Shown here: piece by piece, positions 1 to 13,948 of the stretch
How positions within the stretch are numbered: the first letter of the stretch is position 1
How the letters are laid out: every line of letters starts with the position of its first letter
IMG/VR virus record: IMGVR_UViG_3300042691_035106
Span: 1-59,304 of that record
Direction: 5' to 3' (one strand)
From: a virus
DNA: 59,304 nucleotides
Notes under the pieces: model-generated
Told to the model about the DNA's origin: nothing
The model's input: only the letters and a program-made list of their open reading frames with translations
Databases searched by the model: none
Program-made: the position numbers and the translations under genes

Positions 1-230
1 TGCAGGACCGCTTTTTGTCATTCTGACCCAATCTATACTATTAGCGTTAGTTAGAAGTGACAGTCGTTATTGGAATAGCATATCGCCAAAACGCAAGTTG
101 AACGCCCTGATGCGGAAATCCCGCATCGAGGCGCTTGCATTCTGGACAGGTGCAAACTGGAAATTGCTCAGCCTGGCGAACGATGGCCGGCCGATCGAGA
201 TCTGTGGGGGCTCGCGACGATATCACCCTA
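1..230. other. Left-end non-coding stretch
   Basis: No convincing gene is visible. The first 80 bases are clearly more AT-rich than the rest of the window, as attachment regions often are. A minus-strand open frame over 47-391 has no protein-like composition. One CCCTATC (226-232) is the reverse complement of the right-arm motif GATAGGG. Confidence 0.4.
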
Positions 231-4922: not shown

Positions 4923-6269
4923 TCAACCCTCCGCCTGCTTGCTCAGCTCGCGGCGCTTGGCAGCAACCAGCCCGTCCAGTTCCTCGATCACCTCATCGGG
5001 CAGCCCGGCGCGAATCTTGGCGAACTCGTCGTCGGCCGACTTGAGGTGCTGCTTGTTCTTGGCCTGGGCGACGGCGCTGCGGATCCACTGGACCTTGCCC
5101 CACCATGCGGGCTTTTCATCTTCGACCTGCGCCTCACCGCGCTGTTCATCGGCTGGCCCTTCGGCGGCGGCGGGGTTGTCCTCGGCCAAGGTCCCGTCAT
5201 TGCCATCGATCGGCTTGCCGTCGTAGATGTCCCTCCCGGCGTCGAGCGCGCGGGCCTGTTCCTCGCTCACCTCGGTCATGCCGGTGGCGGCATCGCGCGC
5301 GGGTTCGTCGATGATCTCGCCGGTCTGCTGGTCGAAGTTCGTGGGGATTTCGTCGTTCAACTCTTCGGCGAGGGTCTGAGGTTGGACTTCGCCGGTCTCA
5401 GGATCGTGCTGTCCTTCGATGTCTTCGGGGTTGGGCAGCGCGACCGGCTTGGCACCATCTACCGCATCGAGCAGGTGCGCGGCGCTTGCGGCGGCTTCGA
5501 ATTCGCGGCCCTCGACATCGACGATCACGTCACCGCTCATCGGCAGGGTCTTGCTGTGGCGGCGCATCACGGTCTTGCGGGCCATCTCGCCGAACCAGTC
5601 GGCCCACGGCCCCTTGGAGACCCGCGCCTGGCCCTTGCGGTCGCGGGTGGCGCCGGTCTGGCTGGCCTCACGAACCTTGTTGATCTCGCCGCGGCGCATA
5701 ACCTCGGCAGACACCGAGCCGTCCTTCATTCGGGCCAGAGAATAGGCCGCAACGATCTGGTCGTCGGTCAGCGCTTCATCGGGCAGATCGAGCATCGGGC
5801 GATGCCGGATCGGCGGCTCCATCCCGACCTCATAGATGAATGCGCCGGCCTCGACCTCGGCGCGGTAAACCAGCCCGGTCTGCAGGCTGACGATCTCGCC
5901 AGACTGGACGATCTTCTTCCGCAGCCCGTAAACCATCGGCATGTATTGCACGAGTTGCTTGCGCTGCCAGTTGCCCTGGGCGTCTTTCGAGGAGGTCGAG
6001 AAGATCACCAGCGCCGCCTCGCGGCCATCGGGGAGCAGGCCGTCCTGTGCCGCCTTCATTGCCGAGACGATCAGCGACTGGCGATCGGCGGCGAGCAGTT
6101 CGGGGTTGCTCTGCGCGGCGGTCACGATGGTGCGCTGCAGCTTTTCCGGGCTGATGTGGCTGGGAAGCGCCTTCTTGAACTCGTCGGCGCGCTGTTCGAG
6201 CTGGGTCGCGAGCTTGACGAGCGGTGGGGTTTCCTTGCGCTCGGCAGGAAGGTTGCTGGGGGCGTTCAT
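4923..6269 (-). CDS. recT: RecT-family single-strand annealing protein with long C-terminal extension
   Basis: RecT proteins bind single-stranded DNA and anneal complementary strands during phage recombination. Residues about 20-290 match the family, with LLPDGREAALVIF and the downstream VQYMPMVYGLRKKI, and a basic KTVMRRHSKTLPMSGD stretch. At 448 aa it is longer than typical RecT (about 270-370 aa); the extra part is an acidic, low-complexity linker and a helical tail. The start at 6269 is the only ATG before the domain. A partner exonuclease is not obvious, though DUF3820-like and accessory proteins are encoded nearby. Confidence 0.85.
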   Translation of the reverse strand: MNAPSNLPAERKETPPLVKLATQLEQRADEFKKALPSHISPEKLQRTIVTAAQSNPELLAADRQSLIVSAMKAAQDGLLPDGREAALVIFSTSSKDAQGNWQRKQLVQYMPMVYGLRKKIVQSGEIVSLQTGLVYRAEVEAGAFIYEVGMEPPIRHRPMLDLPDEALTDDQIVAAYSLARMKDGSVSAEVMRRGEINKVREASQTGATRDRKGQARVSKGPWADWFGEMARKTVMRRHSKTLPMSGDVIVDVEGREFEAAASAAHLLDAVDGAKPVALPNPEDIEGQHDPETGEVQPQTLAEELNDEIPTNFDQQTGEIIDEPARDAATGMTEVSEEQARALDAGRDIYDGKPIDGNDGTLAEDNPAAAEGPADEQRGEAQVEDEKPAWWGKVQWIRSAVAQAKNKQHLKSADDEFAKIRAGLPDEVIEELDGLVAAKRRELSKQAEG

Positions 6270-9151: not shown

Positions 9152-9249
9152 TTGCCGGAATCCTTGCTGGCGTACCAACCCGCAGCGAGGCCGGCCGCGA
9201 AGGCGAGCGCCACGAACAGCAGCCAGGCGGTGATCTGTAGGCCGCTCAC
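9148..9249 (-). CDS. Tiny single-span membrane protein, 33 aa
   Basis: The GTG at 9249 overlaps the stop of the first operon gene (GTGA), and its own stop overlaps the next GTG. The sequence is almost one transmembrane helix (ITAWLLFVALAFAAGLAAGW) with a short charged tail. Early expression from PL makes roles in membrane signalling or exclusion possible but untested. Confidence 0.6.
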   Translation of the reverse strand: MSGLQITAWLLFVALAFAAGLAAGWYASKDSGK

Positions 9250-9569
9250 GCTGCCAGCCTCTCAGCCGCCATGGCAGCCTCGATGTCGCTATCGTCCCAC
9301 GGCGCGAGGATCTTGCCCGGGCGCTGCGGGAAGCCGTTGCGGACCAGCCAAGCAAAGCGCTCCTGCGAGGGCGAGAACCGGAACCGGCAGGTTTGCAGCA
9401 CGCGCAACTCGCCCTGCCGCGCGGCGAAGAAATCCTCGTAGGGAAAGCCGTCGCTGTCGTAGGTGGTGGTGCTCAGCAGGGTCCAGCCATCGACTGGCGC
9501 GATCCGGGGAACCAGCGCCATGCCGGAGAGGCTTTGGAGTATGTGGGGAGTGGGGGCCGTGTCGTTCAT
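9246..9569 (-). CDS. First gene of the leftward (PL) operon, 107 aa, unknown
   Basis: The ATG at 9569 (MNDTAPTPH) is chosen because an earlier in-frame start at 9581 would lie inside the predicted -10 element. The sequence has a beta-rich middle (DGWTLLSTTTYDSDGFPYEDFF) and an aromatic segment (SQERFAWLVRNGFP). No Shine-Dalgarno precedes it, and the predicted start of transcription is 0-3 bases upstream, so the message is probably leaderless. Function unknown. Confidence 0.6.
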   Translation of the reverse strand: MNDTAPTPHILQSLSGMALVPRIAPVDGWTLLSTTTYDSDGFPYEDFFAARQGELRVLQTCRFRFSPSQERFAWLVRNGFPQRPGKILAPWDDSDIEAAMAAERLAA

Positions 9570-9577
9570 GGACACGG

Positions 9578-9606
9578 TCAATATTGGACCGATCCTACAC
9601 GGTCAA
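9578..9606 (-). promoter_or_regulatory. Predicted early leftward promoter PL
   Basis: On the minus strand, TTGACC (9606-9601) is followed after 17 bases by TATTGA (9583-9578). An operator-like site sits in the spacer and a second lies just upstream. Transcription should begin near 9571, at the ATG of the first gene. Confidence 0.65.
9584..9597. promoter_or_regulatory. Operator-like site OL1
   Basis: TTGGACCGATCCTA, between the -35 and -10 of PL. It matches the inverted-repeat form TAGGAT-nn-RTCCAA also present at 9615-9628 and at the divergent PR promoter, and is the likely repressor site. Confidence 0.6.
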
Positions 9607-9614
9607 GAGGAAAA

Positions 9615-9628
9615 TTGGATTGATCCTA
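9615..9628. promoter_or_regulatory. Operator-like site OL2
   Basis: TTGGATTGATCCTA, a perfect GGAT-nn-ATCC palindrome, centred 31 bases (three helical turns) from OL1. It overlaps the stop codon of the lipoprotein gene. Confidence 0.6.
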
Positions 9629-9874
9629 CATTCGTGATTCGGCCAGATAGCAGTTCACGGTAGCGTAGCCGCTCCACTCTTTGGTCTTGGCGGCGTCGCC
9701 GGCCTTGGCCCATTCATCGGCGGCGCGGCTGGCCGCAGCGCAGAGCTGGGAATACGACCCGTCCGCATCCTGGATATTCCGAAACTCACGCTCGGCGGAG
9801 TTCGCCGCGAAGTTGCAGCCGCCGAGCAGCAGCGCGCTACTCAGGGCGAACCGACGAAATGACCACTGCGGCAA
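9626..9874 (-). CDS. Small lipoprotein co-transcribed with the repressor, 82 aa
   Basis: From a TTG at 9874 the protein has a basic n-region (SFRRF), a hydrophobic core (ALSSALLL) and a lipobox LGGC, so it should be lipidated after cleavage. The mature part is about 60 residues, helical, with two further cysteines. The start overlaps the repressor's 3' end by about 38 bases, so it would be made in lysogens. Lysogen-expressed phage lipoproteins often block superinfection; that role is an inference. No other start gives a complete signal peptide. Confidence 0.6.
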   Translation of the reverse strand: MPQWSFRRFALSSALLLGGCNFAANSAEREFRNIQDADGSYSQLCAAASRAADEWAKAGDAAKTKEWSGYATVNCYLAESRM

Positions 9875-10502
9875 TGCGCGTCTCCTCGATTCCCTCGCCA
9901 GGCAGGTCGGCTCGGAACGACTGATGAACGGGGTTGCTTGAGCGCGGCACGAACCAGACCGCGCCGTCAATCTCGACCATCTCCTTGACCGTGGCCTCGA
10001 CGCGCTGGTCGGCGCGGCGACGCAGGACCACAACCTTGCTGCCCGGCCGGGCCTCGACCCGCCCGAACACGCTGGCGCATTCGATATAGGTTCCATGCGG
10101 ATAGACCAGATCCATGCTATCGCCGCAGACCCTGAGAAAGAAGCGGTGCAGCGGATCGATCCCGACATCGGGGCGGCCGGTCATCGCCTGCCAGTCGTCG
10201 TGCGGCCATTCGAAGGCGTCGATCCACATTCCGGCCGCAACCTCACCCTTGAGAAACAGCGTCGGTCCGGCATTGGCAGGTTCGAGCCCGTCGCCAAGCA
10301 GTTCGCCGGCCTGGACATGGAGAGCTTCGGCGAGCTTGAAAATCGTGCTCAACTTGGTGTCCGAGGTCTTCTCGAGCAAGTCCTTGACCAGCGTCGGGCT
10401 CTTGCCAACCCGCAGCGACAGGCTGGTCGGCTTGACCCCTTCACGCTTCATCAAAGCCGCAAGATTGCGCCGCAAAACCGCCATGTCGAACCCGTCTGCC
10501 AT
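9837..10502 (-). CDS. CI-like phage repressor with S24 (LexA-type) autocleavage domain
   Basis: The N-terminal helix-turn-helix (about residues 10-65, with VGKSPTLVKDLL and TIFKLAEALHV) would bind the operators at 9584-9628 and 10563-10594. A VAAG sequence is a likely Ala-Gly cleavage site, followed by the catalytic serine in CGDSM and the lysine in GSKVVVL. It therefore should be inactivated on DNA damage, inducing the phage. The start is set at ATG 10502; ATG 10484 (MAVLRRNL) is equally possible. The gene diverges from the Cro-like gene. Confidence 0.85.
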   Translation of the reverse strand: MADGFDMAVLRRNLAALMKREGVKPTSLSLRVGKSPTLVKDLLEKTSDTKLSTIFKLAEALHVQAGELLGDGLEPANAGPTLFLKGEVAAGMWIDAFEWPHDDWQAMTGRPDVGIDPLHRFFLRVCGDSMDLVYPHGTYIECASVFGRVEARPGSKVVVLRRRADQRVEATVKEMVEIDGAVWFVPRSSNPVHQSFRADLPGEGIEETRIAAVVISSVRPE

Positions 10503-10555
10503 CCAGGCGGTATGACACGCCAGCCCGCTCATCGGGAATATTGGACCGAGACGGC

Positions 10556-10584
10556 TTGACGATAGGATGCGTCCAACATATAGG
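10556..10584 (+). promoter_or_regulatory. Predicted early rightward promoter PR
   Basis: TTGACG (10556-10561), a 17-base spacer and TATAGG (10579-10584). Operator-like sites occupy the spacer and overlap the -10. Transcription should start at about 10591-10593, only 3-5 bases before the Cro-like ATG. Confidence 0.65.
10563..10576. promoter_or_regulatory. Operator-like site OR1
   Basis: TAGGATGCGTCCAA, in the PR spacer; an 11-base core TAGGATGCGTC is repeated 18 bases downstream. It shares the GGAT...TCC form with OL1 and OL2. A half-site TTGGACCGA lies at 10541-10549. Confidence 0.6.
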
Positions 10585-10594
10585 ATGCGTCCAT
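10581..10594. promoter_or_regulatory. Operator-like site OR2
   Basis: TAGGATGCGTCCAT, a near-exact copy of OR1, overlapping the -10 element and ending two bases before the Cro-like ATG. Confidence 0.6.
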
Positions 10595-10595
10595 T

Positions 10596-10790
10596 ATGGC
10601 ATTACTCGACGAAATCGAAGCCTTCCTCCGGTCCACCGGGATGAGTGCCACCGCCTTCGGCAAGGAGGTGGCGAAGGATCCTCGGTTCGTCCACGATCTG
10701 CGCAAGGGTCGCGATCCCAAAATGTCGACTGCGGAATCTGTCCGCGATTGGATCGCGCGATATTCCGCCCCTACGGCTGATGCCGCATGA
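10596..10790 (+). CDS. Cro-like small HTH regulator, 64 aa
   Basis: A short protein with a helix-turn-helix (about residues 15-45: SATAFGKEVAKDPRFVHDLR). It is transcribed divergently from the repressor and is the first gene after PR. The ATG at 10596 has no Shine-Dalgarno and lies only 11 bases after the predicted -10, consistent with leaderless translation. It likely represses the CI-like gene or early promoters by binding the same operators. Confidence 0.75.
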   Translation: MALLDEIEAFLRSTGMSATAFGKEVAKDPRFVHDLRKGRDPKMSTAESVRDWIARYSAPTADAA

Positions 10791-11012: not shown

Positions 11013-11429
11013 ATGCTGATTGATCCTTTTCTGATCACCACCGTTGCCTTCGGGGTCTTGACCGTCTGGCTGGGGTCAAGGCTCGCAACCGAGCGCGTCA
11101 CCGCCAGACGGCAGTTACGCTACTGGCGAGGGCGCGCCGACGACCTGCATGTCAAGGTCTGGTGCCAGGAACAGGTGATCGCCTGCCACGAGGAAGCGGA
11201 TGCGAAGCGTGCGCAGCAGCGCCGCGCCGCTGCTGCCAAGGGCACGGCGGTAAGCGCGGTGCGCGCGAGGTTACGCCGGCAGCAGGACGATCTCGAGCGG
11301 CCGATGCGCGCCGCCAAGACGATCGAGGCCTTGCGCACCACCCCGATGCGCAGCCGCGAGGCGGTGGTCGCCGGGGTCAAGGCGGCACGAACCCGCAAGC
11401 AGCAATCAGGCGCCGGCGCGGCGGCGTAA
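11013..11429 (+). CDS. Membrane-anchored basic protein, 138 aa
   Basis: The ribosome site GGGAGG precedes the ATG at 11013. One transmembrane helix (about residues 5-23, FLITTVAFGVLTVWLG) is followed by a long, arginine-rich, helical cytoplasmic tail (ARLRRQQDDLERPMRAAKTIEALR). Upstream in-frame codons are not protein-like. Function unknown. Confidence 0.6.
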   Translation: MLIDPFLITTVAFGVLTVWLGSRLATERVTARRQLRYWRGRADDLHVKVWCQEQVIACHEEADAKRAQQRRAAAAKGTAVSAVRARLRRQQDDLERPMRAAKTIEALRTTPMRSREAVVAGVKAARTRKQQSGAGAAA

Positions 11430-12843: not shown

Positions 12844-13016
12844 GCGTCACCCGCAACGACCGCCTCGCCCAGCGCATCCGCGCCGCACGCCGGGCGATGT
12901 ACCGGATGGAGGATGCGGGCGACCTTGAGGGCAAGCACGCGATCCGAGACCTGATCCGCACCGCCGAGAGCCAGCGCAAGGCGATTGTCGACCTGCGCGA
13001 GAGGCGGTTCGGATGA
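12840..13016 (+). CDS. Small helical protein, 58 aa
   Basis: Coupled on both sides by ATGA overlaps. It is basic and helical (RLAQRIRAARRAMYRMEDAGD). Function unknown. Confidence 0.6.
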   Translation: MSVTRNDRLAQRIRAARRAMYRMEDAGDLEGKHAIRDLIRTAESQRKAIVDLRERRFG

Positions 13017-13948
13017 GCGATCCCTTCCTCATCACCGGCCCGGCACTCATATCGTTCTCTGGTGGGCGGACCAGTGCCTACATGCTCTGGCGCATCCTCC
13101 AGGCGCACGGCGGAACGCTGCCCGACGATGTCCATGTGACCTTCGCCAACACTGGTAAGGAGCGCGAGGAAACCCTGCGTTTTGTCCAGGAGTGCGCAAC
13201 GCGGTGGAATGTGCGGGTGAGGTTGCTCGAATGGCGATCGAGGCCACTTGGCCAACAAGGCCGAGGTGTGCCGCCGGAAGACCGCTACGATGAGGTTGGG
13301 CACAATTCACTGTCGCGCGCAGGAGAGCCGTTCAAGGCGCTGATCGAGCGCAAGAAGTATCTACCGAACGCGGTATCCCGATTCTGCACTTCAGAACTCA
13401 AGATCGAGGTGATGAAGTGGTTTATGCAAGCGCAAGGCTACCGAACGTGGACCAACGTGGTGGGCCTGCGCCGTGATGAGATGCACCGGGTTTTCAAGCA
13501 GATTGAGCGCAACGAGAAGAACAAGGAATGCTGGAAATCGGTGATGCCGCTGGCATCCTTTTCCGGCGCCACCACGGCGAACGACGTGTGGAAGTTCTGG
13601 TTGGGTGACAACACTGATCCGAAATCGCTGACCCACGAACTTCCGCAAGGCTTTGATCTTGGTCTCTATCCATACGAAGGCAACTGCGACAATTGCTTCT
13701 TGAAGGGTTATCAGGTTCTTTCGCATCTCCAACGGAAGGAACCGGAAGCCTTCGAGGATTGGATCGCCATGGAGGCGAGAGCGACCGCTCTCGCCTCCAA
13801 AGAGTCCGGGGCGCGGTTCGATGCGGATTGGTCCTACGCGGACATCAAACGTGATGTGGCGGCGAGCCCGCTACTGATCCCGATCGATTGGCGCGCGCTC
13901 GAGTTTGATGCCGAATGCGGAACATGGTGTCCGGGGGAGGCAGCATGA
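13013..13948 (+). CDS. PAPS-reductase-like (adenine nucleotide alpha-hydrolase) phage protein
   Basis: The N-terminal SFSGGRTSAYMLW is the PP-loop of PAPS reductase and related ATP-cleaving enzymes, followed by HVTFANTGKERE, typical of this family. A downstream GNCDNCFLKG gives a CxxC near residue 228, and a FCTSELK segment lies near 125. Phage members have been linked by context to sulfur-containing nucleic-acid modification or tRNA thiolation, but this protein's role is unknown. Its sequence is less GC-rich at third positions than its neighbours, which hints at separate acquisition. Confidence 0.75.
   Translation: MSDPFLITGPALISFSGGRTSAYMLWRILQAHGGTLPDDVHVTFANTGKEREETLRFVQECATRWNVRVRLLEWRSRPLGQQGRGVPPEDRYDEVGHNSLSRAGEPFKALIERKKYLPNAVSRFCTSELKIEVMKWFMQAQGYRTWTNVVGLRRDEMHRVFKQIERNEKNKECWKSVMPLASFSGATTANDVWKFWLGDNTDPKSLTHELPQGFDLGLYPYEGNCDNCFLKGYQVLSHLQRKEPEAFEDWIAMEARATALASKESGARFDADWSYADIKRDVAASPLLIPIDWRALEFDAECGTWCPGEAA

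Follow-up and report, generated by a model that had tools for sequence, protein, structure and literature searches.

Predicted leaderless regulators and a candidate translational lock in a lambda-like phage immunity switch

A near-leaderless cro gene is, to judge from the sequences upstream of it, a conserved design in the immunity regions compared here, because a promoter spacing of 35–40 nt and a near absence of Shine-Dalgarno (SD) sequences are kept in 66 loci despite their differing operators. We think it likely that both switch genes, cro and the repressor gene, are leaderless or near-leaderless, that in the relatives an arm at the leftward promoter PL hides the SD in read-through RNA, and that the PL gene of the window has lost its SD. 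The window, meaning the whole stretch of DNA analyzed, is a 59,304-base virus record with a G+C content of 65%. The region described below is best explained as a lambda-like immunity switch, and the host of the phage is probably alphaproteobacterial and sphingomonad-like, as inferred from a relative on a Sphingomonas parapaucimobilis plasmid.

The immunity region and its early promoters

The repressor gene lies on the minus strand between two promoters, with a Cro-like gene divergent from it and a predicted lipoprotein gene, followed by the leftward PL operon, behind it. The repressor (9837–10502, minus strand) was identified by profile searches and alignment (PF00717, 6e-9; HTH_26, 1e-4; phrog_4, 7e-14), and its start at 10502 was set by homology. 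The protein combines a helix-turn-helix (HTH) domain of the Cro/C1 type with an S24 domain, as in a CI-type repressor. The small predicted lipoprotein gene (9626–9874, minus strand), recognized as an open reading frame with a TTG start and an LGGC motif, occupies the place of lambda rexAB between the repressor and PL. It had no family match in protein-family searches, and lipoprotein-like ORFs are also found behind the repressor in two relatives, L002 and L003.

The operator palindrome GGATNNNTCC is present at four sites, at 9586 and 9617 on the PL side and at 10565 and 10583 on the PR side, which places the same operator at both promoters, as in a lambda-like CI/Cro switch. One operator of each pair sits inside a 17-bp promoter spacer: GGATCGGTCC in that of PL (9586–9595, minus strand) and GGATGCGTCC in that of PR (10565–10574, plus strand). 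The second PL-side operator, GGATCAATCC (9617–9626, minus strand), lies 31 bp further upstream, where the lipoprotein ORF ends. The second PR operator, again GGATGCGTCC (10583–10592, plus strand), overlaps the −10 and the predicted start, a space that the relatives leave empty.

An earlier note on this DNA had proposed that PL and PR make leaderless messages without SD sequences. The hexamers and 17-base spacers that it named were confirmed: PL has a −35 of TTGACC (9601–9606) and a −10 of TATTGA (9578–9583) on the minus strand, and PR has a −35 of TTGACG (10556–10561) and a −10 of TATAGG (10579–10584) on the plus strand. The ATG is 8 nt from the −10 at PL (9569) and 11 nt at PR (10596). The two strands together have 670 ORFs that begin with ATG and reach 50 aa or more; among these, the layout TTGACN-(16..18)-TANNNN-(5..11)-ATG was found only at 9569 and 10596, on the basis of which a chance origin was rejected; TTGACN-17-TA sites number only three in the whole window. 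A generic promoter scan of the window missed both PL and PR because it demanded a T at the last −10 position. Such a T is lacking in the sigmaA promoters of Zymomonas mobilis and Caulobacter, and promoters of Z. mobilis follow the consensus TTGNNN-17-TANNNN, most commonly with a discriminator of 6 nt (PMC7566282, for Z. mobilis).

By this Z. mobilis rule the +1 of PL is predicted at 9571 (a 2-nt leader, or 0 nt if the A of the ATG is used) and that of PR at 10591 (a 5-nt leader, or 3 nt if A10593 is used). The description as leaderless thus fits PL, with a predicted leader of 0–2 nt, and applies to PR only loosely, where near-leaderless is the better term for a predicted 3–5 nt. No SD was found in either predicted RNA, as had been claimed. 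The sequence AGGA does occur at 10582–10585, 10 nt ahead of the cro ATG, yet it lies upstream of the predicted start. The next rightward gene, at 11013, has a strong SD (AGGGAGG).

Spacing at the cro and repressor starts

The Cro-like gene (64 aa, 10596–10790, plus strand) was characterized from a family alignment, the HTH model of a relative and a set of 66 loci. A single-protein search with the window's Cro found no relative, a direct DNA search of phage records gave no match, scans of genome contigs for relatives found none, and Pfam holds no model for the Cro family. The loci were obtained from searches with the repressor and Cro alignments, from one Sphingomonas plasmid record and from one cyanophage record. 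The alignment of all 16 Cro sequences was too diverse for patterns, and two sub-alignments were used instead. From the 86 non-identical cro loci gathered, 72 fit the core geometry, and 66 were retained after the removal of upstream regions that were at least 80% identical.

The cro ATG is 35–40 nt past the first T of TTGAC in all 66 non-redundant loci. The distances were found to be 35, 36, 37, 38, 39 and 40 nt in 7, 20, 33, 4, 1 and 1 loci, respectively, so that a spacing of 35–37 nt holds for 60 of the 66. The window's PR, with its 11 nt from −10 to ATG, is the outlier of the family and the single 40-nt locus; the second PR operator may be the reason for the 3 extra bases ahead of its cro ATG. 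An SD energy of −5 kcal/mol or below was calculated for just 4 of the 66 cro starts (median +0.3 kcal/mol), and the base preceding the ATG is C in 49 loci and T in 11. The operator sequences vary among the loci (GTTGG..CCAAC, GTGGGA..TCCCAC, GTGTG..CACAC, TAGGA..TCCTA and CGGG..CCCG), and the geometry has therefore been kept while the sequence turned over. The 14 loci outside the core comprise some true exceptions and others with a truncated or degenerate upstream region. Real exceptions to the leaderless geometry are L007 and L010, in which the distance from TTGAC is longer and a clear SD (AGGAG) is present.

The alignment shows a small family conserved at the divergent position. A predicted model of the L003 relative has four helices (pLDDT 86), and its best structural matches are HTH proteins, among them 434 repressor and 434 Cro, with TM scores of about 0.6 and all E-values above 0.1. 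A Cro-like identity for the gene at 10596 is suggested by where it lies, by the conservation of its family and by the predicted HTH fold, whose database E-values are weak.

The repressor start lies 87–102 nt from the cro start in 56 loci. When these are aligned at the repressor start codon (n = 56), they share the pattern TGnGATANN-6 nt-ATG, in which the discriminator behind an extended −10 ends at the start codon. In the window the extended −10 of PRM, TGTCATACC (10509–10517, minus strand; aligned with 55 relatives), is 6 nt before the repressor ATG, and the sequence reads TGTCATACC-GCCTGG-ATG at 10502. An SD of −5 kcal/mol or below was found at 7 of the 56 repressor starts, and the absence of an SD that is expected of leaderless mRNA is thus seen at both switch genes. 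Since the ATG directly follows the discriminator of the extended −10, the repressor mRNA from PRM is also predicted to be leaderless, a gene left out of the earlier note, which named the PL and PR genes only. On the strength of established work on leaderless mRNA, translation of such messages would be independent of the anti-SD sequence. In Caulobacter, leaderless mRNAs are common and are translated well (PMC4117421).

PL leaders, the upstream arm and the hairpin of the window

Behind the repressor, the operator of the locus is found again in 62 relatives, or in 63 loci when the window is counted. These operators are often paired about 31 bp apart, the second one within a TTGAC-17-TA promoter. 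In 50 non-redundant loci the PL leader of the relatives, counted from index 35, is 17–83 nt long with a median of 34 nt, and the PL gene has an SD of −5 kcal/mol or below in 48 of the 50, a count to be read with the selection of start codons by the best SD among candidates, which biases toward finding an SD. A leaderless PL in the relatives was rejected on the same count. The earlier note had regarded PL and PR as sharing one leaderless design. This is not a family property, and it is also contradicted by the homologs of the window's first PL gene in L112, L113 and L061, which have SD-containing leaders. What stands of that proposal is the cro side, where the near-leaderless geometry is conserved in the 66 loci; at PL, the geometry of the window itself fits a leaderless message.

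Positions −8 to −1 relative to the predicted PL +1, mostly CTCC or CTCCC followed by A, are complementary to the SD region (the +1 picker favors pyrimidine-purine steps, and the A/G count is partly circular). When arms and SD regions were swapped among the 50 relatives, native pairing was determined to be −8.4 kcal/mol versus −6.6 kcal/mol for swapped pairs (sd 0.25, p ≤ 5e-5). An arm upstream of the predicted +1 that pairs with the SD, of the kind found at T4 gene e, is thus present in these loci. A weak native-pairing signal was seen at PR as well (p 0.03). In a scan of arm positions the signal was strongest at −8 to −1, weaker downstream, and absent at −12 and above. The predicted probability that the SD is unpaired was 0.16 for read-through RNA and 0.42 for RNA started at PL; with the arm shuffled it was 0.29. 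The SD was more accessible in PL-started RNA for 47 of the 50 loci.

These results bear on two other explanations. The C-rich stretch ahead of the PL +1 might be a promoter or discriminator element that matches the SD incidentally, given that CTCC before the +1 is common in the set and that any CTCC pairs with any GGAG. We regard this as highly improbable, since native arms pair better with their own SD region than with those of other loci, and since arms that have departed from CTCC still match (CUGUCUC/GAGACAG in L044 and UGCUUC/GAGGCA in L065). The real starts could also be 6–7 nt further upstream, in which case cro would have a leader of 5–8 nt without an SD and the PL hairpin would be an ordinary 5′-terminal structure tuning its own SD. 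The +1 positions are predicted rather than mapped, and the PL arm begins right behind the −10, so that a start there would include the arm. This seems unlikely in view of the 6-nt discriminator most common in Z. mobilis, the end of the arm pairing signal at the predicted +1, and the pyrimidine-A steps at 35–37 both at PL and at the cro ATG.

From the computed architecture, conservation, SD absence at cro and repressor, and arm-SD complementarity, we infer +1 positions, translation mode, operator binding and hairpin function as follows. The repressor would bind the palindromes within the PR and PL spacers. The cro-like mRNA from PR and the repressor mRNA from PRM would carry leaders of 0–5 nt, and the promoter alone would fix the translation start, with no SD. 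In the relatives, the first PL gene would be translated from an SD, and this SD would pair with the 8 bases that separate the −10 of PL from its +1. As this 5′ arm lies upstream of the +1, the hairpin would form only in RNA reading through from the repressor operon, where it would mask the SD; PL-started RNA, lacking the arm, would have an open SD. In the window, the AUG of the PL gene would be at the 5′ end of the RNA, and the hairpin would enclose this AUG in read-through RNA only.

The repressor or the ORF following it stops a median of 29 bp before the PL −35, and the repressor itself stops 24–36 bp before it in several loci (L011, L045, L052, L063, L064, L073 and L107). A terminator-like site between repressor and PL was found in 18 of 49 loci, and none in the other 31, the window included. 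Repressor bound at PL could itself block read-through, and the hairpin would then be unnecessary. Eight loci (L048, L049, L060, L066, L069, L070, L072 and L094) have a longer CACCTGA..stem..CGCGAGACGGTG structure between the CTCC arm and the SD, which may represent either an extension of the lock or a nut-like element. An Rfam search of seven relatives' loci, of which L048, L066 and L069 belong to this subset, gave no match.

The window's first PL gene (107 aa, 9246–9569, minus strand) starts at ATG 9569 without an SD, with a predicted +1 at 9569–9571, and the start is at a comparable place in the homologs in L112 and L113. A hairpin, CCGTGTC-CATGAAC-GACACGG (9558–9578, minus strand, approximate to 1 nt), folds at the start codon with −9.7 kcal/mol. 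Its 5′ arm is upstream of the predicted +1, and its loop holds the AUG in place of the SD that is contained in the hairpins of the homologs in L112, L113 and L061. The hairpin has a shuffle p of 0.001; as a single case it is suggestive only, because a similar one is found at 11 of the 1377 ATGs in the window. The gene might be translated from another start or by coupling, the nearness of ATG 9569 to the −10 being a coincidence of the operator layout. The SD leaders of the relatives' PL and an in-frame ATG 48 nt downstream of 9569 would agree with this; no SD precedes the downstream ATG (−0.3 kcal/mol) and the start at 9569 is comparable in position to the SD-led starts of L112 and L113, and we find such a reading quite doubtful. 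By sequence comparison, PL in the window seems to be a derived form that has become leaderless and lost its SD.

Comparison with known switches

The closest parallels are partial. In the immB region of phage PY54, both cI and cro were found by RACE to be leaderless, and the likeness consists in divergent repressor and cro genes with both transcripts starting at the AUG (PMC4488713). PY54 differs in being an enterobacterial telomere phage with unrelated operators and a Cro that binds a single site, and the excerpts of its report describe no PL lock (PMC4488713). The paaR2/ydaS pair of an E. coli O157:H7 cryptic prophage also has divergent regulators, with 97 bp between the starts and a leaderless mRNA on the repressor side; it belongs to a toxin-antitoxin setting, and in the excerpts of its report only paaR2 is described as leaderless (PMC8630535). 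In T4, the SD or AUG of gene e, soc, 49 and I-TevI is sequestered by a helix in read-through RNA, and transcripts from the near promoters of gene e begin at points that leave out the 5′ portion of the structure (PMC3014915). The proposed PL lock would follow this gene e logic (PMC3014915). The T4 hairpins separate early from late lytic transcripts, whereas here lysogenic read-through would be separated from PL transcripts. A literature search of limited coverage returned no relevant account of a phage read-through SD lock beside a repressor.

The resemblance to lambda includes a repressor, accessory genes and PL in the same direction (cI-rex-PL in lambda), operators at PR and PL, and a leaderless repressor mRNA (that of cI from PRM in lambda, predicted here). 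Lambda cro has an SD leader; here, cro is predicted to be leaderless, and the operators lie within the 17-bp spacers. We would give about even chances to the broader view that this is a widespread lambda-like alphaproteobacterial switch, with leaderless messages for its two regulators and with PL discriminator DNA that also serves as a translational lock, being transcribed only in lysogenic read-through RNA and there covering the SD (the AUG in the window) of the first lytic gene.

Leaderless phage regulators have so far been mostly single cases (lambda cI, PY54 and paaR2). The arrangement described here appears to be conserved across dozens of phages, and its conservation despite operator divergence suggests that leaderless switch genes are selected for where the host translates such messages well. 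If the proposal is true, a lock at PL would account for a lysogen not making lytic protein even though its repressor operon runs directly into a lytic operon.

There are consequences for gene annotation in such phages too. On the Sphingomonas parapaucimobilis plasmid (L032, 5305–6192), no entry is given for the cro-like gene, and the CDS of the repressor runs across it, with a start annotated at 6093 and a conserved start at about 5911 (the PLSDB gene table is incomplete); this is possibly an error caused by the SD-less starts. In a Synechococcus phage (L033, 379–579), a Cro relative has a similar upstream palindrome, and the annotation places a LexA-like gene downstream of it, on the same strand. 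The rightward early region of the window has a PAPS-reductase-like gene at 13013–13948 (phrog_424, 2e-46).
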